Source: Cyclobacteriaceae bacterium (GTDB lineage Bacteria > Bacteroidota > Bacteroidia > Cytophagales > Cyclobacteriaceae). Taken from it: 64,000 nucleotides of DNA. A program made the position numbers and the translations under genes. Below, piece by piece: positions 51,839 through 64,000 of this stretch. The stretch lies in assembly GCA_016787725.1 (NCBI GenBank), contig JAEUTZ010000023.1, positions 1-64,000 of the forward strand. The letters are read 5' to 3'. The notes under the pieces are model-generated. The model worked only from the letters and a program-made list of their open reading frames with translations. It made no database searches and was not told the DNA's origin. Every line of letters begins with the position of its first letter. Position 1 is the first letter of the stretch.

Positions 51839-51913
51839 CGGGATGTAGCACAGCCCGGCTAGTGCGCTACGTTCGGGACGTAGAGGTCGCTGGTTCGAAT
51901 CCAGTCATCCCGA
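51839..51913 (+). tRNA. tRNA-Pro (anticodon CGG)
   Basis: Cloverleaf: acceptor CGGGATG pairs with CATCCCG, anticodon stem CTACG/CGTAG surrounds loop TTCGGGA (anticodon CGG), and the T arm has GGTTCGAATCC. The discriminator is A; CCA is not encoded. The 3' half doubles as the end of the recombinase frame on the other strand, so it was probably rebuilt by an integrated element. Confidence 0.95.
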
Positions 51914-53429
51914 CCTGAGCGGTAGCAAGTAATTTTTTTTTACTGCTACCGCTTTTTTTTTGACCTAAATCACTGTGATTCAAGCCCATTAATACCACCG
52001 CTTCATTGAGCCTTTTGGTTCGAAAATGATTTTTTTCAAAAGTCAATTTTTCGGGAAACACCGAACCAATGATTAATTGCTTTTCACTTAATGAGGCCTT
52101 TTGATATATCAAGTCCATATCTTTTATAAAAGCCGCGCTTAACTTTAAATACTCCCTGTAATCTTCATGGCCCGATGAAAGATTAGCCTTCTTCCTCATT
52201 AGTTCATCATTAGCTTCTAAAATTTTCACCTTTATCTCCTTGTAGTCATTTGCGGTAATCTCTGCATCCAACATCAAATGTTGAGCATTCTGTAGCCTTT
52301 GATTATTCCGTCCAATTTCCTCGTCAATCTTCAGAAGTTCATTTCGGTCATTCTTCGTCTTGGTGTTGAAATTATCCAAAAGAACATCGTAGTTCATATC
52401 AAGCGTCATTGCATTGGGCTTAATCATTTTAAGGTATTCCAGAAAGCTCTTATTGGTTTCCTCAGCCCGAAATCTTTCATTACAACCACATGTACAGTGA
52501 TAGTAAAAATACTTGCCACCATTGCCACGAGAGGCACTGCCAGAAATATTTTTACCGCACAAACGGCATTCGAGGAAGCCTCGCAAAGGAAGCTGTTCTT
52601 TCATCGTGTTCTTTGTTGGCCTACTAGGAGTCCTACCGTCCAATATGTCCTGAACTTGAAAAAATAGCTCATCGCTAATTAATGGTTCATGTAGTGCCTT
52701 GGCATAATAGGAGGGTTCATCCTTGTAAGCCGCGACAAAAATCTTCCCAATGTATGCTCTATTCCGAAGCATTTTAGGAAATCGGGAGCGTTCAATGTTT
52801 AAGCCCTTTTCAAAAAGCTTATGTCGTAACTCCTCCATTCCAAAAGCGCCACTTGCAAACTTCTTAAATGCGTCTCGTACAATATCAGCTTGCTTGCTTG
52901 GGATAATCATAGCTCTACCATCTTCAGTTCGAATATTCTTGTAACCGATTGGGGCAAGAGTTGTCCAGCGCCCTTCTTTTTTTGCCCGATAAATTCCTGA
53001 CTTAACATTAATCGATCTTCTGTCATTTTCAACCTCTGGCGAAGCCAGGTAAAACGCCAGCATCATCTTGTTCTCTGGAACTTTTAAATCCAAAGGTTGC
53101 TCAATGGCCTGTGGTTCTATTTCCAGTTTATTGAGTTGTTTTATGATGCCATAGGAATCACCGGCATTGCGGCCAAAACGACTCCAGTTTATAAATAAAA
53201 GTAAATCAACTTCACCTGGATTTTTCTTACAGAAGTTCATCAACTTGTTAAACTCAGGTCGATCAAAAGTCTTCGCGGAATAATCTTCTTTATAATGTAC
53301 AACAATACTGATATCCCTGTTCGCACAATATTTGCGCAATTGTTCTTCTTGATATTGCAAACTATATCCCTTCTCAGCTTGCTCGTCTGATGACACCCTC
53401 GTATAGATTATCGCTCTTCTTTCTTTCAT
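51867..53429 (-). CDS. Large serine recombinase (integrase of the element)
   Basis: A 520-residue serine recombinase. The catalytic domain starts IIYTRVSSDEQ with nucleophile Ser13; the recombinase domain (about 155-260), a zinc ribbon with CRLCG and CTCGC (about 290-325) and a coiled-coil (about 350-430) follow. These enzymes integrate elements at a specific site. The last 15 residues are coded by the antisense strand of tRNA-Pro and the stop (TAG, 51869-51867) is within the tRNA, so the native C-terminus depends on integration. Its first 56 bases overlap the preceding small gene. Confidence 0.93.
   Translation of the reverse strand: MKERRAIIYTRVSSDEQAEKGYSLQYQEEQLRKYCANRDISIVVHYKEDYSAKTFDRPEFNKLMNFCKKNPGEVDLLLFINWSRFGRNAGDSYGIIKQLNKLEIEPQAIEQPLDLKVPENKMMLAFYLASPEVENDRRSINVKSGIYRAKKEGRWTTLAPIGYKNIRTEDGRAMIIPSKQADIVRDAFKKFASGAFGMEELRHKLFEKGLNIERSRFPKMLRNRAYIGKIFVAAYKDEPSYYAKALHEPLISDELFFQVQDILDGRTPSRPTKNTMKEQLPLRGFLECRLCGKNISGSASRGNGGKYFYYHCTCGCNERFRAEETNKSFLEYLKMIKPNAMTLDMNYDVLLDNFNTKTKNDRNELLKIDEEIGRNNQRLQNAQHLMLDAEITANDYKEIKVKILEANDELMRKKANLSSGHEDYREYLKLSAAFIKDMDLIYQKASLSEKQLIIGSVFPEKLTFEKNHFRTKRLNEAVVLMGLNHSDLGQKKSGSSKKKLLATAQVGMTGFEPATSTSRT
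51870..51913. other. Probable attachment site core (attL-type) at tRNA-Pro
   Basis: The minus-strand recombinase frame continues into the tRNA gene and takes its last residues (VGMTGFEPATSTSRT) from the antisense of the tRNA 3' half. Left of the tRNA are core genes, right of it mobile genes. The crossover must lie in or next to this stretch, but its exact base and the other end of the element are outside what I can see. Confidence 0.6.
51918..51961 (+). terminator. Intrinsic terminator after tRNA-Pro
   Basis: GCGGTAGCaAGTAA (51919-51932) pairs with TTACTGCTACCGC (51940-51952, one bulge), followed by nine T residues. It sits just inside the element, where it would end the tRNA transcript. Confidence 0.8.
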
Positions 53430-53565
53430 CCTTTTCTCTTTGATAAATGTTGTACTGTATCTCTGCTAGTTGATAAAGAAAATCTCTAATCTTAAGTAAC
53501 TCATCATCCGTATAATTGTAGCCATGCTTTTTGGCTAGCTCCCTGCACCTCGCCAACGACACCAT
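53374..53565 (-). CDS. Small protein overlapping the recombinase start
   Basis: A 63-residue protein (MVSLARCRELAKKHGYNYTDDELLKIRDFLYQL...). It ends inside the recombinase gene, overlapping it by 56 bases in another frame. The helical pattern with TDDELLKIRDFLYQLAEIQYNIY resembles small proteins I have seen next to recombinases in Bacteroidota elements. Its role is not known; translational coupling or an accessory factor are possible. Confidence 0.6.
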   Translation of the reverse strand: MVSLARCRELAKKHGYNYTDDELLKIRDFLYQLAEIQYNIYQREKDERKKSDNLYEGVIRRAS

Positions 53566-53596
53566 TCTTCAATAAGGTTAACAGGAACATAGTTTG

Positions 53597-53657
53597 GTTA
53601 ATTGGTCGGTTTCTACTTATCATAATATGTGCCAAAAAGAACTGACCCAATTAACCT
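53597..53657. other. Long inverted repeat between holin and recombinase genes
   Basis: GGTTAATTGG (53597-53606) is perfectly complementary to 53648-53657, and the match extends inward to about 17 of 19 bases with one bulge. The loop is about 25-41 bases. There is no T-run on either side, so it is not a standard terminator. It could be an operator or a recombinase/directionality-factor site. Confidence 0.4.
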
Positions 53658-53701
53658 ATCCTTACGCTCCTTAAATATATACTTACAAACTCTCTCTAAA
53701 A

Positions 53702-54184
53702 CTATTTTTTCTTTTTTCTCACATTATAAAGCACTGGCCCCAGGTTCTCACTAATCTTCTCAAGGGATCGACCTGCGACATAACCTCCAACGCCCAAATC
53801 CATCATTGTCCAGATGTGATCATCGAGTGTTGTTACTGGTAAATTGAAGTACGGCACCAGCACATAATTGTTGAAGACAATAAACATGCAGATGCACATA
53901 AGTACAGGTCGCCAGTTTCTCTGAAGCCAACTCTCCCCCTTTGTTTCTGATTCAATGATTTTCGTCTTGTTCTCCAGGAGTTTGCTTTCATAATCAATAC
54001 AAGCTCCCTCCATATTCAGGAGAAGTTCTTTGTACTTCAATTGAAGTTCAAGCTTCTCATCTGACTTGTCTATTTTGTCGATTGCGTTTCCTATGGAATC
54101 GACTGTCTCTTTCACTCCAGCTCCGAGAACTTTAGACAAAAATCCTCCTATGCCTGCCTTGGTACCAACTTCACTTGCCTCCAT
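53702..54184 (-). CDS. GTA/phage holin (3TM type)
   Basis: A 160-residue membrane protein matching the three-helix gene-transfer-agent holin pattern: an amphipathic coiled region (about 40-85), then ESWLQRNWRPVLMCICMFIVFNNYVLVPYFNLP and a terminal LGVGGYVAGRSLEK. Holins form pores in the inner membrane at lysis, but no endolysin is in the window. It shows phage ancestry for the element or a reuse of the domain. Confidence 0.82.
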   Translation of the reverse strand: MEASEVGTKAGIGGFLSKVLGAGVKETVDSIGNAIDKIDKSDEKLELQLKYKELLLNMEGACIDYESKLLENKTKIIESETKGESWLQRNWRPVLMCICMFIVFNNYVLVPYFNLPVTTLDDHIWTMMDLGVGGYVAGRSLEKISENLGPVLYNVRKKKK

Positions 54185-54224
54185 GTCTGTCTGTTTAAAT
54201 TGTTAATAATTCTTTTGATTTATT

Positions 54225-55799
54225 TTAGCTCTTGCTTTGTGGTTCCTGCCATTGGATTCCAAATTGTCTGAAGAAATCCAGTGTGCTTTTGGGCGCATAT
54301 CGGTTTTTAGTTACCGTCACCACCCCTTTATAAACTTCTCCTGCTATCTCTGCGATGTGCTCCCAATCTTTTCCACCTTTGAAGTCTCCCGCTTTTGTGT
54401 GTTGAAGTATGAAAATGAAAGCCGTATCTGGATGCTCTTTTCGCATCTCCTTGTACTGATTGATCTTTAACCCCAAATCATTCACTGAATCAAGGATGAT
54501 GAACTGATAATCCGAAAGATTAGGGTCTTGCAAGTTTTCAGCAAAATGTAATCGCGCAGGTAAAGGATTCAAAAACTCATTTACCTTCTTGGTCATCGTA
54601 GGTGACGCAAACTCTTCCGATGACACATAAAGAACATCTCCAAAATTCTCAGCCAGGTATTGTGCGAGCTTCAATAGGAAAATAGTTTTTCCGTTATGAG
54701 GCTCACCATGAAACATCATCGTGAAGTTTTTGGCCGGATTTCCGAATAGGGATTGCCAGAATGAAAAGAAGCTAAGGAGGTCAAGTTTACGGTTAGCCAT
54801 TTCCTTGGCAGTAAGCACTCCGCTTAATCCCTTGTTGTGCGAACAAGCTCCACGGCTTGCATCCGAATACGTCTTCCTTTTGCATGGCCTAAGTTTCTTT
54901 CCTCCTGTATCGTAAATCCTTCCAACGCCATCCTTGCATCCACATGCTTTTACAATTCCTTCCAGGCCGTTCAACTCCGCTTTGGAAATTGAAATCTTGC
55001 TACTTGTTCTTTGCTTAAGGCTCTTGTAGATGGCATTGACCTTATCCGAGTAGGGATCATCTTTTAAGATTTCCTTTTTTGCCACCAGATTCTCCAGTTG
55101 TTTAAGAAAGCCATTTATTTTTTTCTCATCGTCTTGCCCCTGCAATCCGATAAAGCGCTTGATCACCATAATGGAAGGATAAACCTTTTCCCCTCCAGCA
55201 ATGGCAACCAGGTGATTCAGGTCCTTGTCATTGATGGCGAATGATTCTTCTCCCTTCATCTTGTTGTACGCCTGAACAAGCTTATTCTGAATCATTTCAA
55301 TTTCCTCTGCCAAGGGTGAGGTTTTACGGATGAGCTTTTGAACGATGGACCGTTGCAAGGCCTTGATGAATGAAAGGATCGCATTAGGAGATTTCACCTT
55401 GTTATGCAATCCAACGTACCTTTTGATGTATTTTACCTCCTCTCGGATATGCTCAACATGCTTTACGTGCTTGGGCTCTTTCTTCTCCTTTACCTTTTTG
55501 GTAGCAGTCTTACGTTCGACCTTGATTTTTTCTTTGGCAGACTTCTTTTTGGGTTCCGGGGTAGTCTTAGCTTTAGGTGACTGAGGTTCCCTGGGTTTTA
55601 AAGTAGAAGCGAAGTCATTCAGCTTTTGAAAGTATAGGTCAATGACCTTCTTGATACCTTCACTACTTTGATAGGTAGCCCAATTCGCTCCATTGGATGT
55701 ACTCTTCACCACCAGGTCATGACCTTTCTGTAGCGTTTCCGGCAATGTATTTACACCGATTCGCTCCACTTCAATAAAATAATTACTAGCCGTTATCAT
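54225..55799 (-). CDS. RecA-like ATPase of the element
   Basis: A 524-residue protein. Residues 65-120 are strongly basic and Lys-rich; a helical region (about 125-285) leads to a short Cys-containing segment (CGCKDGVGRIYDTGGKKLRPC, about 286-306), then a RecA/DnaB-like ATPase domain from about 340. Walker A is GEPHNGKT (365-372), Walker B FIILDSVND, with ILQHTKAGDF after. Its start overlaps the stop of the helicase gene (TAATG), so the two are made together. It may load the methylase-helicase or act as a replication or packaging ATPase; unknown. Confidence 0.75.
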   Translation of the reverse strand: MITASNYFIEVERIGVNTLPETLQKGHDLVVKSTSNGANWATYQSSEGIKKVIDLYFQKLNDFASTLKPREPQSPKAKTTPEPKKKSAKEKIKVERKTATKKVKEKKEPKHVKHVEHIREEVKYIKRYVGLHNKVKSPNAILSFIKALQRSIVQKLIRKTSPLAEEIEMIQNKLVQAYNKMKGEESFAINDKDLNHLVAIAGGEKVYPSIMVIKRFIGLQGQDDEKKINGFLKQLENLVAKKEILKDDPYSDKVNAIYKSLKQRTSSKISISKAELNGLEGIVKACGCKDGVGRIYDTGGKKLRPCKRKTYSDASRGACSHNKGLSGVLTAKEMANRKLDLLSFFSFWQSLFGNPAKNFTMMFHGEPHNGKTIFLLKLAQYLAENFGDVLYVSSEEFASPTMTKKVNEFLNPLPARLHFAENLQDPNLSDYQFIILDSVNDLGLKINQYKEMRKEHPDTAFIFILQHTKAGDFKGGKDWEHIAEIAGEVYKGVVTVTKNRYAPKSTLDFFRQFGIQWQEPQSKS

Positions 55800-58700
55800 T
55801 ACGCTGCAAAGTTTAATAGTTCTAATTCGAGTTCCAGAGCAAGAGCTTCAAGCTCCATTTGAGATTGTGATTGTTTTGGTAGGACGACCATGATAGGTTT
55901 TGCCCTGCTTTCTCTCTTAGGGATTTCTCCCTTGATCAATTCATATTGCGGAGGACTCAGTGAAACACTATCATTGAACTTCTCCTGTAATACCTGGACA
56001 AACTCATCTATTCTGTTTTCATCCACGGAAGCAGTCATCCGATCCGAAATCTTTTCAAAGTTGTTTCGATCAACGATATTCAAAAGATCAGGATCAAGGT
56101 AGGTGTCACCACCTTTCGACCTGGCAGCGGAGACCACTAATTTGAATTTCCCAGGTTGCCTGAAAATGGAGACTCCATTTTTAGTGGTGATGCTTGACCC
56201 AATGGTCAAAGACCGAATGATTTTCATTGCCCTGGAAATGGGAACCACGGTCTTTTGCTGAACATCATTTTTAGGCTCCCAATATTCCGGCATGAGAATG
56301 CCTTTCTTGATTCCACCATCAATGGTCGTGTAGCTCACCAGTTTTCCTTTAAAGGCACTGAATGCCTGAAGCACATTTCCGGTAATGATGTGGCGAATCT
56401 TCCTATCTACGGTACTCTCTTTAATTGAAGCTTCCCACTTGGCTAATAGTGAATCTTTGTCTAGGTTTGGTAATCCCACACTGGCTCCGATAATGGCCCG
56501 GACATCTTGGGCATAGCTTGCAGGAATAGCGATGTACTTGTTACTGCTTGCAAGGGCAAAGCGCAACCGCATCGAGCTTGGTGCATAGGGATTCTTCTTT
56601 TTCCTGTCGATGATGAATCCCAGGAAAACGGCAGGCGCTAACTCCTGGCCGCCATCATAGCTATTGACTGGATAGTTAAGATTTCGTCCTACATAGAAAG
56701 ATTCAAAAATGGATTCCAGGTATTGCCTCCGGTTATTGAAAGACCGTTTAATCTTTTCTTCGGAATCAGCCATTGCTTTGTGCAACTCGTTTGTCCTGGC
56801 TTTTATAACTTCCTGTGCTTCGGCTGAAGTACCTTTTTCAATAAGCTTCTGAATCTTCTTCTCTTGTGGAATCTTTTGAATCAGGTCTTCATAGTAGGTT
56901 ACATTCTCAGCGACTTCATGATTAAGCTGCTCACCCATATAACCCTCATACTCCAACTTCACTTCCTTTTGCAATTCTCGTCCCTCTTTGCCTTGAAGTG
57001 ATTCGACCAGGAGATTGTTTAGCTCCTGGCGTGAGAATGGTTTCTTCAAAACGTTCGCCATTACTGTTTCCAAAATGCTGTCATCGCCAAACTCACTTGT
57101 TCCACCTTTGCCCACGATAACAGCCCTGGAAGATTGAGTTTCTGTCTGGAGATCCATTGCTTCTACTTCAAGGTCATACTCACCGATCTGTTTGAGATAC
57201 TCTACATACTCATTGTATCGGTTGGATATTTCGTTGTAAAAGTCTTGCTGCATGGCTGTTGAAAGCACAGCTACTCTTCCTGAAACTCGATGGGCTGCAT
57301 CCTCCAGTTCTGCTCCATCTACTTCTCGTGTTGCCAGACCCAATGGATCATCCAATAAAGTGTTGACCTCCAAATTCTCTTTTAAATACTCCGCGACAAT
57401 GCGGTCTCCATACTTGTTAAGAAAATCTGGAACGTCCAGAATCTTTGTCGATGACTTCTGATTGGACGTGGTATTCGCGTCCAGCGATTTCAGTTTCTTT
57501 TGAAGCATCATCATCAATCGCTTCTCAGCGGGAATCGCAGAGTTGACATAATCGTAGATCGGTTTGTAAATCTGTCCGGTGCGGTTTATCCGGCCTCGTT
57601 TTTGAACCTCGGTGTTAATGTCAAGCTCCGCTTGCAATACAATCATAACTCGTTGCTTCACTTTTTCTTTGACAACCTTTGGAGTGATGATCGCGTGTGC
57701 CGATGCTCCGGTACTTCCTGATTGGTTGATGAGCAGAACGTCTACCTCGTTATTATTGAACTGACGAAACGCATCATTGGTATTCACTCGCTTACGAGTC
57801 ATGATGAGAGCCTTATTAGTCTTCGGATTAATTTGAAGCTCGTACTTGCGACCAGTAACCTCGGCCACTTTGTATCCCGCTTCCGTAATCTTTCGGACAA
57901 TCACATCAATAGGAGAAATGGTAATTCCAGTTGAGGCTTCTCTGATCCGATCACCTATTCTTAAATACTCAGCTTGTGCCTCCAGGGAAAAATCGGAGAT
58001 TTCAAATTTTTTGAAAATCTTCTCACCATCGGTGTCTGTCTCCGTATAGCGAAGGACTCCATCAAGACCTTTTTGAAGCACCAATGAAAAGTCTGCATTG
58101 ATCGTGTCACCATCGGAAACAGCTAGCCCAGCATCATTCTCCATTTGTTCGATGAAGCTTCCCATGGTACTCGCGAAAGCGATAACCGGTTTCTTCCCTT
58201 CCTTCAATCGCGCAATGGCTCGTTCAGCAACGGCTTCGGCCTTAATGCTGAAAAGCATTTGGTTAATTACATTAAAGACCTTGGAGAAGTATGGGAGGTT
58301 ATCGACTCCGGCTTGTGAAGTACCTTCCCGAATTTCGACTTGTTTTCCTTCGGCCACTGCGATGTCATCCAACTCATCAACAATCTCATCCACATAGGTT
58401 GTCTGAAATTTGATGATGTCGCGAATAATGGAGGTGACATTATCAGCAATGGCTCTATGCTCTTGCTCTTTTTGTTCGAGTGTGATGTAGTTCACTTCAA
58501 CACCTTCGAAGGAACGCTCTCTGCGAACCATCTGGCCTTCGGCTACAAGTTGACTCGCCAGGATTTCTTGCAAAGCCACTCCGCCTTTGGTGATCGCTTC
58601 AATCAAAGCATCCCTGGTCATGCTCGCATCACGAATGGAAGTCTTCATCGCATAGATGGGCATGTTATCAGGACGCTTGGCGAAGGTGGCTGAAAGGAAT

Positions 58701-60457
58701 ACTACGCCTCTTGTCTTGGACAAAGCGGATTGCATGAAGTTTCCGGTATTGCCAGAACCGGATGAATTGTGAGCTTCATCCATGATGACGATGTTATCCT
58801 CTGCTATTGCATTTAAGAAGGCAGGTTTAGTTGGCTTCTTTTCAGGGGAGTTGAACTGTGAGTAGGTGGCAACTGCGAAATGAAAGTTTCGTGGTATGCG
58901 TTGTCCTTCAAATATTCTGTTTTGGTCCGCGGTTGGAAGTGCCTGGTAAATGATGTTTCCATCTTCATCCTTGATGTCGGTTTTACTTTCACGACCATTG
59001 ACAATAAAAGGAATAAGGTGCGAAGAACCAATGGCAGACAAATCACGATATATGTCAGAGAACAGGTTTGCTTTTTCAGTAATGAAGATTGGCTGAACTC
59101 CTTGCTCCACGGCATAGCGGATGATAGAGGCAGCAATGCGTCCTTTACCAATTCCTGTTTGATCTCCAATGATCATCCCAACACCTCGTTCCTCAATGTT
59201 GTAAACTGACATGGCGACCGCATCAATCTGTTCGGCTGATAAAGCTTTGCACAACTCAACATTGGTTCTGTAGTTGAGTTTTATTCGAACATACTCGTCA
59301 ATATCTCCTCCAACGGCTTCCTTTATTCGTTGTAAAGCACTGTGGGTTTCAAAGCCCATCGAATCGGGTACTACGGTATTAAGAACAAAGCAGCTACTTG
59401 ATGCGGGTATGTAAGGCATACCAAGTTCATCAAAGCTCATCAGTTCAAGTTCCAGGGCAAGAGCCTGGGCTTCTAATTCTAGTCTTGTCATAGTTAAATT
59501 TTGTCTAGGCTTTGTTGCGCTGATTACACGATCAAATAGTTCTTCAAAGGAATCCACAACCTTATCACGTACTGAATCTTTTAATGGTGCCGCACCAGAA
59601 GGCTGCGCCTTGCGGCCATCAATGAGCATCAACCGTGTATCAAAAGAAGTACCTTGCCGGGAGTAGAGTTTTTTTCCATCAATGGGAATGATGTCAACTA
59701 CATGGTATCGGCTAAAGAGGTAATTAAAGAAAAAACGATTCTTTCCTTTTTGAATTCTTCCTTTCTTATCATATCGTGTATGTCCTCCGATAATGATCGC
59801 AGCTTTACCATTATCTTTCATGCAGTCAAGCGCACGTAAGGCCATCAGGTGATCGAGTACTTCAATGCTAAAGGTCTCGTACTTCACCTCCTTGTCTAAT
59901 AGTCCGAAGGGAGGATTCGTTATGACTGCATCAAACTTCTTTTCGAAACCTTTAAAGGAATTTGTGGCATCTTGATTTAATACTTGTCTGTACCCCTGGT
60001 CAGCTAAGTTCGATCTTCTTAGCTCATCAATTTCATTGACAATAACTCTGGATGGATTAGCGGCAATCGTAAGCAGACCATTTCCAGCGGACGGCTCAAA
60101 CACTGAAATGTTCTGCTCTGCATTGGTGAAAATTCCAGCAAGAAAGGAGATGGGAGCAGGGGTACTGTATTGTTGTAATAAGATACTCTGACTTGTGCGG
60201 TGAGAAATATTTACCTGGCTTTTGTAAAGCTCAACGATACTCCAATACTTATTTTCAATAACTAATGATGAAAGCGCAATGCTTCTTGCTTTCAGAACAA
60301 TAGCAAGTTCAGTGTATTCTTTAACTTCAGATTTATCAGTGATTCCGTAAGACGAGGCAATGCGCTCAATAGATTTTCTATTGTGCTTATTCTTTGCATC
60401 CAGCTCGTTGCGAACGTGCTGAAGAAATTGTGCCTTTATGATTGTTTTGTCCTTCAC
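55799..60457 (-). CDS. N6-adenine methyltransferase fused to Strawberry-notch-type helicase
   Basis: A 1552-residue polyvalent protein. An N-terminal Eco57I-like DNA methyltransferase has FEPSAGNG (about 104) and NPPFG (181-185). A Strawberry-notch SF2 helicase follows, with DQTGIGKGR (Walker A about 434-440), DEAH (560-563) and QKRGRINRTG (about 952). The last 500 residues are helical and have no clear domain. Related giant proteins in phages and ICEs, including P1 DarB, protect incoming DNA from restriction. The start is a GTG at 60457 covered by a perfect palindrome. A short peptide LELEAxALALELEL occurs after the methylase and again at the very C-terminus. Confidence 0.88.
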   Translation of the reverse strand: MKDKTIIKAQFLQHVRNELDAKNKHNRKSIERIASSYGITDKSEVKEYTELAIVLKARSIALSSLVIENKYWSIVELYKSQVNISHRTSQSILLQQYSTPAPISFLAGIFTNAEQNISVFEPSAGNGLLTIAANPSRVIVNEIDELRRSNLADQGYRQVLNQDATNSFKGFEKKFDAVITNPPFGLLDKEVKYETFSIEVLDHLMALRALDCMKDNGKAAIIIGGHTRYDKKGRIQKGKNRFFFNYLFSRYHVVDIIPIDGKKLYSRQGTSFDTRLMLIDGRKAQPSGAAPLKDSVRDKVVDSFEELFDRVISATKPRQNLTMTRLELEAQALALELELMSFDELGMPYIPASSSCFVLNTVVPDSMGFETHSALQRIKEAVGGDIDEYVRIKLNYRTNVELCKALSAEQIDAVAMSVYNIEERGVGMIIGDQTGIGKGRIAASIIRYAVEQGVQPIFITEKANLFSDIYRDLSAIGSSHLIPFIVNGRESKTDIKDEDGNIIYQALPTADQNRIFEGQRIPRNFHFAVATYSQFNSPEKKPTKPAFLNAIAEDNIVIMDEAHNSSGSGNTGNFMQSALSKTRGVVFLSATFAKRPDNMPIYAMKTSIRDASMTRDALIEAITKGGVALQEILASQLVAEGQMVRRERSFEGVEVNYITLEQKEQEHRAIADNVTSIIRDIIKFQTTYVDEIVDELDDIAVAEGKQVEIREGTSQAGVDNLPYFSKVFNVINQMLFSIKAEAVAERAIARLKEGKKPVIAFASTMGSFIEQMENDAGLAVSDGDTINADFSLVLQKGLDGVLRYTETDTDGEKIFKKFEISDFSLEAQAEYLRIGDRIREASTGITISPIDVIVRKITEAGYKVAEVTGRKYELQINPKTNKALIMTRKRVNTNDAFRQFNNNEVDVLLINQSGSTGASAHAIITPKVVKEKVKQRVMIVLQAELDINTEVQKRGRINRTGQIYKPIYDYVNSAIPAEKRLMMMLQKKLKSLDANTTSNQKSSTKILDVPDFLNKYGDRIVAEYLKENLEVNTLLDDPLGLATREVDGAELEDAAHRVSGRVAVLSTAMQQDFYNEISNRYNEYVEYLKQIGEYDLEVEAMDLQTETQSSRAVIVGKGGTSEFGDDSILETVMANVLKKPFSRQELNNLLVESLQGKEGRELQKEVKLEYEGYMGEQLNHEVAENVTYYEDLIQKIPQEKKIQKLIEKGTSAEAQEVIKARTNELHKAMADSEEKIKRSFNNRRQYLESIFESFYVGRNLNYPVNSYDGGQELAPAVFLGFIIDRKKKNPYAPSSMRLRFALASSNKYIAIPASYAQDVRAIIGASVGLPNLDKDSLLAKWEASIKESTVDRKIRHIITGNVLQAFSAFKGKLVSYTTIDGGIKKGILMPEYWEPKNDVQQKTVVPISRAMKIIRSLTIGSSITTKNGVSIFRQPGKFKLVVSAARSKGGDTYLDPDLLNIVDRNNFEKISDRMTASVDENRIDEFVQVLQEKFNDSVSLSPPQYELIKGEIPKRESRAKPIMVVLPKQSQSQMELEALALELELELLNFAA

Positions 60458-60706: not shown

Positions 60707-61696
60707 TTACTGATGTGGGTTTGTGGGAAACTCTTCCGGAGTTTTCCATGAATCCACATCAGACATAGCAACTGCGTTTCGCTCCGCATCATACATTTCC
60801 TCAAAAGTTCTTTTCTTAAAGTAAGTCTTCCATCTTCGCTTAAGTTCTCCGCTTTGCTGGTGTGCATTATTTGGAGTCAGGTAATCACAGCTTGAATGCA
60901 GACGGTGTTCGTTATAAATTCTTACTCCATCAGTCACTGCTTTCAAAGCGTCTTCATAACTGTCAAATTCCTTGTCAAGGAAAAATTCACCTTTCAGTAT
61001 TCCATTTAATCTTTCAGCAATAGCATTCTCGTAAGGATCGCCATTTTCAGTCATACTAATCTCAATGCTTCTTTCTCGCAGAAGTCCAACATATTCTCCG
61101 CAGCAATACTGAACTCCACGGTCTGAATGATGAAATAATTTACTGTGAGGATATGACCTTTGATTAAGTGCATTATTAAGAGCTTCAAGACATCCCAGGT
61201 GAGAGAGATCCTTGCTCAGGCAGTAGCCCATAATTTTGCGGGAATACGCATCTGTGATTAACGACAGATAGCAAAAATCATCCTTGAGCGTGAGATAAGT
61301 AATATCAGAAACCCAAACTTGTTCTGGTGATCTTATCTCCATATCCCTGATAAGGTTAGGATATTTTCTTAACCAATGCCTGGACATAGTAGTTTTAACT
61401 TTCCTCCGTTTCCTCTTGACTGTCAGACCATAGGAGTATAATAAATCGTGTAACTTATCTCTGCCCAACTTAATACCATGCTCTTGTAATGGGCCTTTGA
61501 TTGCTCTGTGAAGCTTAGGTGTCCCCAGCTTTTTCATCAACTTCCTTTGCTCTCCAACCAGTTTAAGGACCACAGCATATTCAATTGTTCTCTCTTCGAC
61601 TTGCCATTCTTTGTCATAGTAGGCATGACGTGTTTTACCAAACAGTCCGCAAAGCCTCTTAAGGCCAACGTGACAATCTCTTTTCATTATTTTCAC
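60707..61696 (-). CDS. IS3-family transposase OrfB (DDE integrase)
   Basis: A 329-residue DDE transposase with intact catalytic triad: Asp in WVSDITYLTL, Asp in FHHSDRGVQY, and Glu in NAIAERLNG. The N-terminal part is the HTH_21 region. It begins with a GTG in a GTGA overlap with OrfA's stop, but is likely made mainly as an OrfAB fusion by -1 slippage at the AAAAAAG at 61717-61711; the frame is open from there. Stop TAA at 60709-60707. Confidence 0.93.
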   Translation of the reverse strand: MKIMKRDCHVGLKRLCGLFGKTRHAYYDKEWQVEERTIEYAVVLKLVGEQRKLMKKLGTPKLHRAIKGPLQEHGIKLGRDKLHDLLYSYGLTVKRKRRKVKTTMSRHWLRKYPNLIRDMEIRSPEQVWVSDITYLTLKDDFCYLSLITDAYSRKIMGYCLSKDLSHLGCLEALNNALNQRSYPHSKLFHHSDRGVQYCCGEYVGLLRERSIEISMTENGDPYENAIAERLNGILKGEFFLDKEFDSYEDALKAVTDGVRIYNEHRLHSSCDYLTPNNAHQQSGELKRRWKTYFKKRTFEEMYDAERNAVAMSDVDSWKTPEEFPTNPHQ

Positions 61697-62229
61697 CGTT
61701 TGGTACCAGACTTTTTTCGGATGTCTATTTTGAGATCCTTTTCTGCAATGTTGATCATCGTTTCTAGTCCGATGATCTTAAGGTTTGCATCTTCGAGTGC
61801 TCGTTCGAGCTGGCGAATGCGGTTTTGATCAATAGGGCTTTTATCTTGCTTCTTTGGCACAAGCTCTTCATTTATATCAGCAAGTTGGCTGGAATATTTT
61901 TCAATCCACTTCTTGATTGAGCCTTTTGTTACGTTGTATTGTGTGGATGCTTGCTCAACCGTGTACGCTCTTGTGATAATGCCTCTGACAACTCTGAGTT
62001 TTAATTCTTCAGGACTCTGCGGTCTTATCTTTAGGTTCACACCATCGTATTTTCTTACCTGTCGCCTCCAACCATGCAAGGCGGGAATTGATATGTCCAA
62101 TCTCTGACAGAGTACTTGAGACGAGGACAGCCCCTTCTCATACTCTTCAACAGCTTGCTTCTTGACAGACATAGGGTGGACGTGGTACCCGCTCTTCTTT
62201 TTACTTTTTTTTGATTCTTGTTTATTCAT
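61693..62229 (-). CDS. IS3-family transposase OrfA
   Basis: A 178-residue DNA-binding protein when started at the ATG at 62229. Two helix-turn-helices are seen (MSVKKQAVEEYEKGLSSSQV and VEQASTQYNVTKGSIKKW), followed by a leucine-zipper-like C-terminus (RQLERALEDANLKIIGLETMI). It is longer than many OrfA proteins because it has two HTH modules. The AAAAAAG stretch near its end is a slippage site that joins it to OrfB. Stop TGA at 61695-61693. Confidence 0.92.
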   Translation of the reverse strand: MNKQESKKSKKKSGYHVHPMSVKKQAVEEYEKGLSSSQVLCQRLDISIPALHGWRRQVRKYDGVNLKIRPQSPEELKLRVVRGIITRAYTVEQASTQYNVTKGSIKKWIEKYSSQLADINEELVPKKQDKSPIDQNRIRQLERALEDANLKIIGLETMINIAEKDLKIDIRKKSGTKR

Positions 62230-62262
62230 GCTACACACGGTTTGTGTGTATAGCTATTTCAG

Positions 62263-62886
62263 TTAAAGACAATTTTGCCAATTCAATGGATCTCCATGAA
62301 TCCCTGTTTTAAAATTAGTCGTCACCCAATTTATAAAATCATTACCAATTTGTTCGTTTTCAAATTTTTTTTCGCCAATTCCAGAATGACAAATTTCAAT
62401 TAACTCATTTGGAATGGTTGGTGCTCTATCCCCAAAGTAATAGAAGTGTTCAGATATTAGAACATTTTCACCTCTAATATCCGTTTCAAGATGTTTTGGG
62501 TTGCAACTTCCATCTAGGTTGGAATGAGCAGAATTTTCTTGAATCCAGTTCCCATTTTCGTCTTTATGATAAAAGTTGTCACCAAACATCATAACTAGAG
62601 TTCCATTAATTACAGGTTTTTTGTATTGAAATCTCTGTTCGGTCCAATAGTGTTCAAATGAAATTCTTTCAGTTACTCTCATAGCATAAATCAATTTGTT
62701 TCTTAAATTAATTCTGCCTGATGAAACTTCAAGGGCTTTTGAACCCGTACCAACAACCCAATCCCCTAATTTCAGTTTACTACTCGCTCTAATTTTTGGT
62801 TTACATACTGCCAAAGTGCAATACCGACCAAATGGATTTGGAGCTAACCCTAAATCATGTTCAATTAGATAAGAGTAAACAACCAT
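62263..62886 (-). CDS. Nmad2-like protein (nucleotide modification associated domain 2)
   Basis: A 207-residue protein. The start VYSYLIEHDLGLAPNPFGRYCTLAVCKPKIR, then GDWVVGTGSK and the late FYYFGDRAPTIP, match the pattern I know for Nmad2, an all-beta domain found near DNA base-modification genes. No enzymatic activity is established. It is the last of three tightly packed genes (3-base gap to the TIR-like gene). Its TAA (62265-62263) lies one base from the IS, so the IS inserted right behind it. Confidence 0.78.
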   Translation of the reverse strand: MVVYSYLIEHDLGLAPNPFGRYCTLAVCKPKIRASSKLKLGDWVVGTGSKALEVSSGRINLRNKLIYAMRVTERISFEHYWTEQRFQYKKPVINGTLVMMFGDNFYHKDENGNWIQENSAHSNLDGSCNPKHLETDIRGENVLISEHFYYFGDRAPTIPNELIEICHSGIGEKKFENEQIGNDFINWVTTNFKTGIHGDPLNWQNCL

Positions 62887-62889
62887 AGC

Positions 62890-63372
62890 CTAACACTTCA
62901 CAGTTGTTCTGGGGTATAAAGGGTTGGCAACAGTTCCATCGGGATTTTCAGTTGGAACATTTTCACCAGTAATTATCTCTCCAAGTTTTTCAATAGAGTT
63001 CCATCCAATTATACTTGATGCATACTTTTTCAAGTTCTCAGGAAGTTCAGCGGTCTCTGCATATCCATGAGCATAAATACCTACTATTTTCTTTCCTTGT
63101 TCATGCGCCCATTTTATTTCGTCATTAACCCATTCACGTGTATGCGTTTTTGGACCAATCAAACAAATTAGGGTGCTTGACCATTTGATTCTCATTTTCA
63201 GTAGACGCTCAACAACTTCAGGTCTTGGAATGCGACCATCCTTGTGATTAGTGCTGTCAACTGAAAAATTCCGCACATTGTAGCCTTGTTCCTTCAACCT
63301 TGCTTTCAAAGATTGAACATGTTCATCGTCTTTACCATAGTGGCTGATGAAGATATTTTGTTGTTCTGCCAT
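62890..63372 (-). CDS. TIR-like (MTH538/DUF1863) protein
   Basis: A 160-residue single-domain protein. IFISHYGKDDEHVQSLKARLKEQGYNVRNF is a TIR start; SSTLICLIGPKTHTREWVNDEIKWAHEQGKKIVGIY is the ThsB/MTH538-like centre with Trp and Glu at the likely active site. Domains of this kind cut NAD or make cyclic ADP-ribose signals in Thoeris and related defence systems. Here it lies between a base-modification-type gene and Nmad2, with 7- and 3-base gaps, so all three are probably one unit. Confidence 0.85.
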   Translation of the reverse strand: MAEQQNIFISHYGKDDEHVQSLKARLKEQGYNVRNFSVDSTNHKDGRIPRPEVVERLLKMRIKWSSTLICLIGPKTHTREWVNDEIKWAHEQGKKIVGIYAHGYAETAELPENLKKYASSIIGWNSIEKLGEIITGENVPTENPDGTVANPLYPRTTVKC

Positions 63373-63379
63373 GATATGA

Positions 63380-64000
63380 TTATTTCGCTTTTATGATATT
63401 AATACCCCACTTAGGTGGAAAATAAAATTCAATTGGTTCACTTCCTTGATTTGTAAACTTTTGCTTAATTCTTGTTCTCTTAGAATATCCGCTTATTTCA
63501 GGATTTGCAACTCTTAAATACTTATCAACTTCACAAAAAATATTTTGACAGTCAATTAACTGCAAATTTCTTCCCCACAAGTTTCTAAAGTCAATATTTA
63601 ATCTGTCAAATTCTCGTTCTTGATTATCTGCCATTAGGCGAATAATATCCTCAAATGAATAGCCTCCAAAATCTTTAAAGCATTTTGCAATCCCATCTTT
63701 CGCACCAGGGCCTGCTTTTACAAACTCCATTTCACTATAGTTTGTTAGTGTGCTGTAATTTATATCCGTTACATATTGGTAAGCCAAAAAATCACCAATT
63801 GTGGAATAAGAATGTAAGAGGTGGTATGCCTCATTCATGGTTTTACAATATCTAAGTTGATTAGGAACATTTTCCTTAATCATCGATTCAATTAATTTCA
63901 AATGATTTTGGTGTTTCCTTGTATAACCGAAAGTTGACCTGCCTGACGCCATGATATAAGCAGCAGAGTAAATCGGAATTTTATTTCTCATTAGTTCTGA
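63380..64000 (-). CDS. HMUDK_hel / thymine-pyrophosphorylase-like protein, 5' partial
   Basis: At least 206 residues; the reading frame stays open to the window edge, so the ATG at 63991 is probably internal. IPIYSAAYIMASG, TIGDFLAYQYVTDINYS and EFVKAGPGAKDGIAKCF match the alpha-helical family called alpha-glutamyl/putrescinyl thymine pyrophosphorylase clade 3 or 5-hmdU DNA kinase helical domain, known from phage hypermodified DNA. It should bind or modify a base or nucleotide. First of three genes with TIR-like and Nmad2-like partners. The region is visibly AT-rich compared with the core, as expected for acquired DNA. Confidence 0.8.
   Translation of the reverse strand, partial: SELMRNKIPIYSAAYIMASGRSTFGYTRKHQNHLKLIESMIKENVPNQLRYCKTMNEAYHLLHSYSTIGDFLAYQYVTDINYSTLTNYSEMEFVKAGPGAKDGIAKCFKDFGGYSFEDIIRLMADNQEREFDRLNIDFRNLWGRNLQLIDCQNIFCEVDKYLRVANPEISGYSKRTRIKQKFTNQGSEPIEFYFPPKWGINIIKAK

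Follow-up and report, generated by a model that had tools for sequence, protein, structure and literature searches.

A Thoeris-like TIR-SLOG cassette with HMUDK_hel and Nmad2 proteins in a Cyclobacteriaceae bacterium

Related defence systems

To our knowledge, infection sensing by Thoeris-like TIR systems is understood in only a few cases. Here we describe a seven-gene cassette that straddles the right end of a 64,000-nucleotide stretch (hereafter the window; positions 1-64000 of contig JAEUTZ010000023.1, C19 in our own numbering of contigs) in the 4.2-Mb genome of a Cyclobacteriaceae bacterium (assembly GCA_016787725.1). With moderate confidence we read it as a Thoeris-type TIR-based anti-phage (abortive infection) system combined with a pyrimidine-base or nucleotide module, the TIR signal being gated by surveillance or processing of uracil or 5-substituted-uracil bases or nucleotides. 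In Thoeris, the SLOG domain of the effector ThsA has been described as the portion that binds the cyclic ADP-ribose (cADPR) signal. The cassette resembles Thoeris in its ThsB-type TIR with a conserved glutamate and in its SLOG-containing receptor or effector, and a full-length SIR2-STALD ThsA occurs in six related loci. It differs in lacking a SIR2 ThsA, its effector being split into TIR2 and an LD_cluster2 SLOG protein, and in the additional Nmad2, HMUDK_hel and MazG_C. It probably works like Thoeris but is not classed as standard Thoeris.

DefensePredictor (Science 2026, PMC13092281) tested 94 Escherichia coli transcription units and validated 42. The newly validated domains include 5-hydroxymethyluracil kinase and thymidylate synthase (TS), and TS, dNMPk, 5hmdUk and NMAD are listed in a figure legend; the word TIR is absent from the main text, and no mechanism is given in the sections used here. 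A form with TS, dNMPk-like, HMUDK_hel, TIR and Nmad2 genes was found here in 16 of 5,426 E. coli genomes, with type IV secretion genes nearby in one record examined, and is probably the validated system. It shares HMUDK_hel and Nmad2 with the cassette, and a TIR accompanies them in the E. coli loci examined. It differs in its TS-like and dNMP-kinase-like genes, families not found among the seven cassette proteins, and in a divergent HMUDK_hel (144 bits on the HMUDK_hel profile), whereas the cassette has MazG_C and its own SLOG and TIR2. Given this relative the cassette is not wholly new, and the statement in the initial annotation that no characterised system has such a gene set is, going by the legend, outdated. 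Beyond DefensePredictor, no other paper on this gene set was recognised in a literature search of limited scope.

Other systems share single elements. Among the predicted systems in Fig. 6F of PMC13092281, which cites Burroughs et al. 2015, are aGPT-Pplase, MazG, MazG-C, dUTPase, NMAD and UDG; these are domain kinds of the cassette presented as predicted defence, a likeness by domain list, the operon groupings not being stated in the part of the paper used here. The phage 5-hmdU DNA kinase and 5-PmdU glycinyltransferase pathway has the HMUDK_hel family and possibly, going by the model of a relative, its fold in common with the cassette, and some loci add TS-like and kinase partners; the HMUDK_hel of the cassette differs in having no kinase domain and in being joined to TIR, SLOG and Nmad2. 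Brig1 (PMC11078745) is a DNA glycosylase serving defence, against phage T4, but its main text is without MazG and has TIR only in a reference title, whereas the cassette would add second-messenger signalling. Clover (PMC12265719) links defence to thymidine nucleotides, but consists of a dNTPase and a nucleotidyltransferase, with no TIR or SLOG named in the portion of the paper used here.

Gene content of the cassette

The seven genes lie on the minus strand in the order TIRa, MazG+MazG_C, TIR2, SLOG, HMUDK_hel, TIRb and Nmad2 (Table 1), with spacers, from TIRa to Nmad2, of 10, 25, -17, 2, 7 and 3 bases. The window end cuts the cassette, leaving only the last three genes inside; the other four extend further right, up to position 68016 of the contig, which runs on to 78118 in the same numbering. 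The start positions of TIRa and MazG were picked by inspection. MazG_C, Nmad2 and HMUDK_hel each have a single match in the whole genome.

The initial annotation had recognised three open reading frames (ORFs), spaced 7 and 3 bases apart, and had assigned them to the HMUDK_hel, TIR and Nmad2 families. Spacing and families agree with the Pfam results (PF18723, PF08937, PF18753), the searches placing both genes that flank the TIR gene in the families named. Its three-gene set, however, fell short by TIRa, MazG_C, TIR2 and SLOG, found on extending the contig to the right; a system of only three genes is ruled out by these four further genes on the same strand. Of the overlooked proteins, SLOG points most strongly to a Thoeris-like mechanism. 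This copy is a variant in which the TIR-SLOG effector is split, two TIRs are of ThsB type and HMUDK_hel lacks a kinase.

Table 1. Genes of the cassette and the adjoining transposase pair (contig positions)
Feature	Position	Strand	Evidence
Nmad2 protein, 207 aa, last cassette gene	62263-62886	minus	PF18753 E 1.5e-69
TIRb, 160-aa TIR protein of ThsB type that probably makes the signal	62890-63372	minus	PF08937 E 1.3e-18; PADLOC ThsB PDLC00418 E 9.8e-43
HMUDK_hel, 340 aa in full	63380-64402 (window part 63380-64000)	minus	PF18723 E 7.3e-112 full protein, E 3.7e-58 window part
SLOG LD_cluster2 protein	64405-65376 (right of window)	minus	PF18163 E 7.3e-85
TIR2	65360-66556 (right of window)	minus	TIR_2 E 9.9e-12
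MazG+MazG_C	66582-67466 (right of window)	minus	MazG_C E 2.3e-67
TIRa	67477-68016 (right of window)	minus	ThsB_TIR E 1.2e-17
Transposase gene pair abutting cassette end, outside the system	60707-62238	minus	rve and HTH_Tnp_1 domains

Conservation of the TIRb-Nmad2 pair

Named genomes were scanned with an alignment of TIR-linked Nmad2 sequences, and the best 80 of at least 539 confirmed relatives were kept, a sample biased to TIR-linked Nmad2. Two wrong rows of alignment A2 (L018:2780-3373 and L020:4704-5426, not Nmad2) were removed before alignment A3 was made, and neighbouring genes in the loci (L numbers) were called with profiles built from the seed proteins. In 78 of the 80 loci a TIRb is found no more than 1.5 kb from Nmad2, scoring above 100 bits in 76 and weakly in two (L084, L104). 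It was not seen near Nmad2 in L029, a locus truncated by the end of its contig, or in L098, a Lokiarchaeota contig. Of 79 plus-strand cases, 74 have a TIRb (>100 bits) that ends somewhere from 10 bases inside Nmad2 to 19 bases ahead of its start (median 2); L051, with its best Nmad2 on the opposite strand, is not counted. The five exceptions comprise L029, L084, L098, L104 and L045, in which TIRb is downstream. The linkage is real and recurs in other phyla, in line with the tight association with TIR genes proposed at first.

A second sample, drawn with the Pfam model from 375 genomes of the same phylum, contained Nmad2 in 13. TIRb is adjacent in only five of these and absent from the 1.5-kb flanks in the other eight, so that TIR linkage is ruled out as a property of all Nmad2 proteins and marks one Nmad2 subfamily. 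The eight genomes without TIRb score at most 168 bits on the TIR-linked Nmad2 profile, against 237-290. Three of these eight, without TIRb within 1.5 kb (L121-L123), belong to another Nmad2 subfamily, which adjoins Nmad3: the partner is Nmad3 in L121 (PF18754 by Pfam), and in L122 and L123 the beginning of the neighbour is nearly identical to that of the L121 Nmad3.

HMUDK_hel occurs in seven of the 375 genomes, three times in TIR-Nmad2 loci (our own, L134 and, by coordinates 1.9 kb apart, G063); the other four genomes are without Nmad2, three having TS-like matches and one MazG_C only. MazG_C was found in 5 of 296 genomes. The initial annotation had described both genes beside TIRb as known from phage, which applies to HMUDK_hel (444 of the phage records searched matched) but not to Nmad2, for which tblastn with the cassette protein returned zero matches at E 1e-5 among 50,697 phage records. 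The view of Nmad2 as a phage protein is weakened by this result. IMG/VR yielded seven Nmad2 loci, two of them with strong TIRb.

Nmad2, HMUDK_hel and UDG-like proteins

The Nmad2 protein scores 234 bits on PF18753 (gathering score 26.1), and the full HMUDK_hel protein 373.8 bits on PF18723 (threshold 25). A structure model of Nmad2 (predicted local distance difference test, pLDDT, 96.5; predicted template modelling score, pTM, 0.91) has its nearest folds, with middling scores, in ASCH and YTH, which suggests a PUA-like fold. For HMUDK_hel, the relative in L065 was modelled (pLDDT 93.5), and the nearest fold, again with a middling score, is that of the phage 5-PmdU glycinyltransferase (5-phosphomethyl-dU transferase). 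Input alignments comprised 73 rows for Nmad2 (that of the window and 72 of the 85 listed) and 46 for HMUDK_hel (45 listed, L065 with its own start, and the window part). A sequence search of solved structures gave nothing usable for the Nmad2 profile, the HMUDK_hel profile, SLOG or the UDG-like protein, and PADLOC had no match for HMUDK_hel or Nmad2.

A P-loop motif was not found in the HMUDK_hel of the cassette, which speaks against its acting there as a kinase. The motif is present in 2 of the 69 HMUDK_hel ORFs of the loci, and Pfam recognises a thymidylate-kinase domain with HMUDK_hel in L071, L076, L099 and L132. The alignment consensus of the UDG-like proteins retains GxD, LWN and HPS, which we take to be the UDG motifs.

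Exchange of partners on a TIRb-Nmad2 core

Beside TIRb-Nmad2, the 80 loci have HMUDK_hel in 55 cases, a UDG-like protein with MazG_C in 18, neither in 7 and, within the sequence fetched, both in none; six of the seven with neither have a short flank on one side. Restricted to the 51 loci flanked by 6 kb or more on each side, the counts are 50 for TIRb, 34 for HMUDK_hel, 16 for UDG, 1 for neither partner, 0 for both and 31 for MazG_C. The mutual exclusion was rechecked, since four ORFs of three UDG loci had fallen into the HMUDK_hel cluster: they resemble the thymidylate-kinase part of fused proteins, not HMUDK_hel. A hypergeometric estimate for the zero overlap is about 1e-12, a guide only, as it ignores relatedness. 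When 86 TIRb+Nmad2 rows, 82 of which carry a label, are arranged in a quick tree, 5 changes between HMUDK_hel and UDG are required, and starred branches force 4 of these. Thus, HMUDK_hel and UDG replace each other on one TIRb-Nmad2 core.

Relatives (E <=1e-6) of MazG, TIR2, SLOG, HMUDK_hel, TIRb and Nmad2 occur somewhere in the fetched stretch in 12 of the 80 loci. All seven cassette genes are present in identical order in a Chryseotalea locus (L040), and plasmid pRHL1 of Rhodococcus jostii RHA1 has the same six gene kinds in three runs of alternating strand. Such differences of orientation in some loci would fit two separate systems side by side, one a Thoeris-like TIR-SLOG set and the other an independent module for nucleotide metabolism, gathered in the same islands, as would the occurrence of HMUDK_hel with MazG_C or TS-like genes where there is no TIR-Nmad2. 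We regard such a coincidence as improbable: in 50 of the 51 well-flanked loci TIRb-Nmad2 is accompanied by HMUDK_hel or by UDG, in none by the two together, and the seven genes of our own cassette form one run with small gaps or overlaps.

TIR-free sets were also encountered. On cyanobacterial, rhizobial and Streptomyces plasmids (L009-L013), HMUDK_hel and MazG_C are accompanied by a small protein (named ACP in L009 and L013), a helix-turn-helix (HTH) protein, an ImmA/IrrE peptidase and, in some, a thymidylate synthase; this is perhaps a separate defence or base-modification system. L019, in which the profiles found no TIR, has a MazG_C and UDG-like pair with ImmA/IrrE and HTH genes and is a UDG form of this set.

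Additional partners were clustered in 89 loci, one or two representatives of each cluster being checked with Pfam: TS-like (26 loci), dNMP-kinase-like (8), radical SAM (8) and DCD-like (8). A thymidylate-kinase domain is fused to HMUDK_hel in three TIR-Nmad2 loci (L071, L076, L099), and a separate protein resembling it is found in nine further loci, including the UDG loci L021, L051 and L062. These partner sets might instead be biosynthetic, yielding either a hypermodified thymine nucleotide or a mark in DNA (dUMP converted to a 5-substituted dUMP, phosphorylated and transferred) that Nmad2 reads, a tripwire or all-clear ligand whose change in infection releases TIRb. The combination of TS-like, kinase and HMUDK_hel genes presumably resembles phage thymine-hypermodification operons, which we count in favour of this explanation. 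However, by the clusters used, neither our own seven genes nor most UDG+MazG_C loci include a TS-like, kinase or radical SAM gene; there the precursor would have to come from a host or phage enzyme. A precedent for an inhibitory thymidine nucleotide signal is provided by Clover (PMC12265719, as far as the part used here describes it). Overall, we consider a biosynthetic role rather unlikely.

The radical SAM genes stand near the TIR-Nmad2 set in L015, L045, L046, L048, L050, L057, L067 and L075; seven of these eight loci have HMUDK_hel, and one has none in reach. In L021 (5787-6530), L051 (8723-9424) and L062 (8776-9431) a thymidylate-kinase-like P-loop gene, split into two ORFs in L062, lies between two TIRb-Nmad2 sets, the loci consisting of two cassettes back to back, one with patatin and one with MazG_C-UDG.

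TIR proteins and SLOG-linked effectors

TIRb Glu85 is present in 90 of 91 aligned sequences and aligns with the glutamate of solved ThsB; we take it to be the catalytic glutamate. Trp81 is found in 88 of 91, as is Phe at position 8. Six related loci encode a SIR2-STALD protein that matches PADLOC ThsA over its full length (E 6.8e-182 to 5.3e-204): the plasmid locus L022 and, from the set of 80, L029, L031, L032, L077 and L097. Effectors of other loci are TIR-LD_cluster2 proteins, a TIR beside LD_cluster3, and patatin with an LD_cluster2 piece. The common part of these varied effectors is the SLOG domain, with the exception of a plain patatin without SLOG match in L008. Counts of LD_cluster2, patatin and SIR2 labels come from small home-made profiles and are rough, with weak matches included (e.g., patatin at 28-45 bits); the ThsA assignments are based on the PADLOC matches. 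The patatin phospholipase of L081 (13615-15267), with a 60-residue piece matching SLOG LD_cluster2, is a candidate SLOG-gated phospholipase effector.

Among the seven genes of the cassette there is no SIR2-SLOG or TM-macro ThsA, and the NCBIfam cut-offs for Thoeris type III (ThcA/ThcB4) are missed (SLOG 21.8 bits against 110, TIR2 35.7 against 220). The SLOG (LD_cluster2) protein gives a partial match to ThsA (E 1.7e-7) and has TIR2 beside it, which here stands in for the SIR2 of ThsA. TIRb would make an ADP-ribose-type signal that the SLOG protein reads.

TIRb could conceivably make a different product, using as co-substrate a pyrimidine base or deoxynucleotide that the module provides and yielding by base exchange a new adenine-pyrimidine dinucleotide or similar signal. 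One ThsB TIR is described as forming imidazole adenine dinucleotide in this way, and some ThsB proteins as having an active site like that of deoxynucleotide enzymes; the partners in our loci belong to uracil/thymine nucleotide enzyme families. Nevertheless, Phe8, assigned without structure alignment, is taken as a residue of NADase type where that subfamily has Tyr, the exchange reported for that TIR involves pyridines, imidazole, histamine and thiazole, not adenine or histidine, and the ThsA-bearing loci suggest a cADPR-type signal. We give base exchange little credence.

Genomic surroundings

A transposase pair adjoins the cassette at the end of Nmad2, and judging by profile coverage (3-197 of 200) Nmad2 is complete. 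Between 62 and 68 kb the G+C content is 0.34-0.37; it is higher at 44-52 kb (0.44-0.49), but at 70-78 kb it amounts to 0.37-0.43. Within the window, a tRNA-Pro gene is overlapped by a large serine recombinase gene, followed by a holin-type protein with three transmembrane segments and an ATPase-like protein (51839-55799); this is perhaps the left side of a mobile element carrying the cassette. Next comes a protein of 1552 aa that combines helicase domains of the Strawberry-notch type with a methyltransferase-like stretch (55799-60457). Just right of the cassette (68108-69550; L002:8109-9551), an XRE repressor-like gene between genes for two similar 92-aa HTH proteins is a possible regulatory switch of the element. 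A comparison of the recombinase/tRNA-Pro side with the right flank for attachment (att) repeats gave just one 15-base AT-rich match, which was not accepted as att sites.

A mobile-looking setting, and the HMUDK_hel relatives in 444 phage records, would also be expected of DNA base modification that shields a mobile element, with the TIR genes incidental to it. The TIRb linkage, the ThsA effectors and the validation of the probable E. coli relative as defence argue against this, and we hold it to be very improbable. The cassette family is widespread, mobile-looking and Thoeris-like.

Proposed mechanism and implications

A defence role of the cassette is likely, as is the immune role with TIR signalling suggested in the initial annotation, and its proposal of modified bases or a nucleotide signal as the cue is a reasonable idea. 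In a Thoeris-type system gated by base surveillance, HMUDK_hel (a UDG-like protein elsewhere) and the PUA-like Nmad2 would recognise or process uracil or 5-substituted uracil altered by infection, in DNA or in the deoxynucleotide pool. MazG_C would handle the matching nucleotides, a task that may fall elsewhere to an enzyme resembling thymidylate synthase, to a kinase or to a protein resembling dCTP deaminase. The base event would license TIRb, in complex with Nmad2 or under its control, to convert NAD+ into an ADP-ribose-type signal; SLOG would bind this signal and switch on TIR2, which would destroy NAD+ and so stop the infected cell. Our observations cover gene content, the conserved linkage, the swapped glycosylase-type partner, the swapped SLOG-linked effectors including full-length ThsA, the conserved TIR glutamate and the predicted folds; what triggers the response, which signal it uses, how its events follow one another and that this copy acts in defence are inferred.

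A more specific form of this gating is offered tentatively, as a doubtful but possible one: TIR signalling might depend on the state of uracil C5, with Nmad2 as reader and HMUDK_hel or the UDG-like protein reporting uracil or hypermodified-thymine DNA or nucleotides. Hypermodification of phage DNA, or a disturbance of the dUTP/dTTP pool, might then directly set off a second-messenger response of the Thoeris type, possibly with a pyrimidine-derived signal.

The family couples TIR-SLOG signalling to proteins of uracil/thymine base chemistry in many bacterial groups and on one archaeal contig from a metagenome-assembled genome (L045), with two unrelated glycosylase-type partners swapped on one TIR-Nmad2 core. 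Should the base module act as the sensor, Nmad2 would gain a function, and phage base hypermodification, usually viewed as a shield, would double as an alarm.
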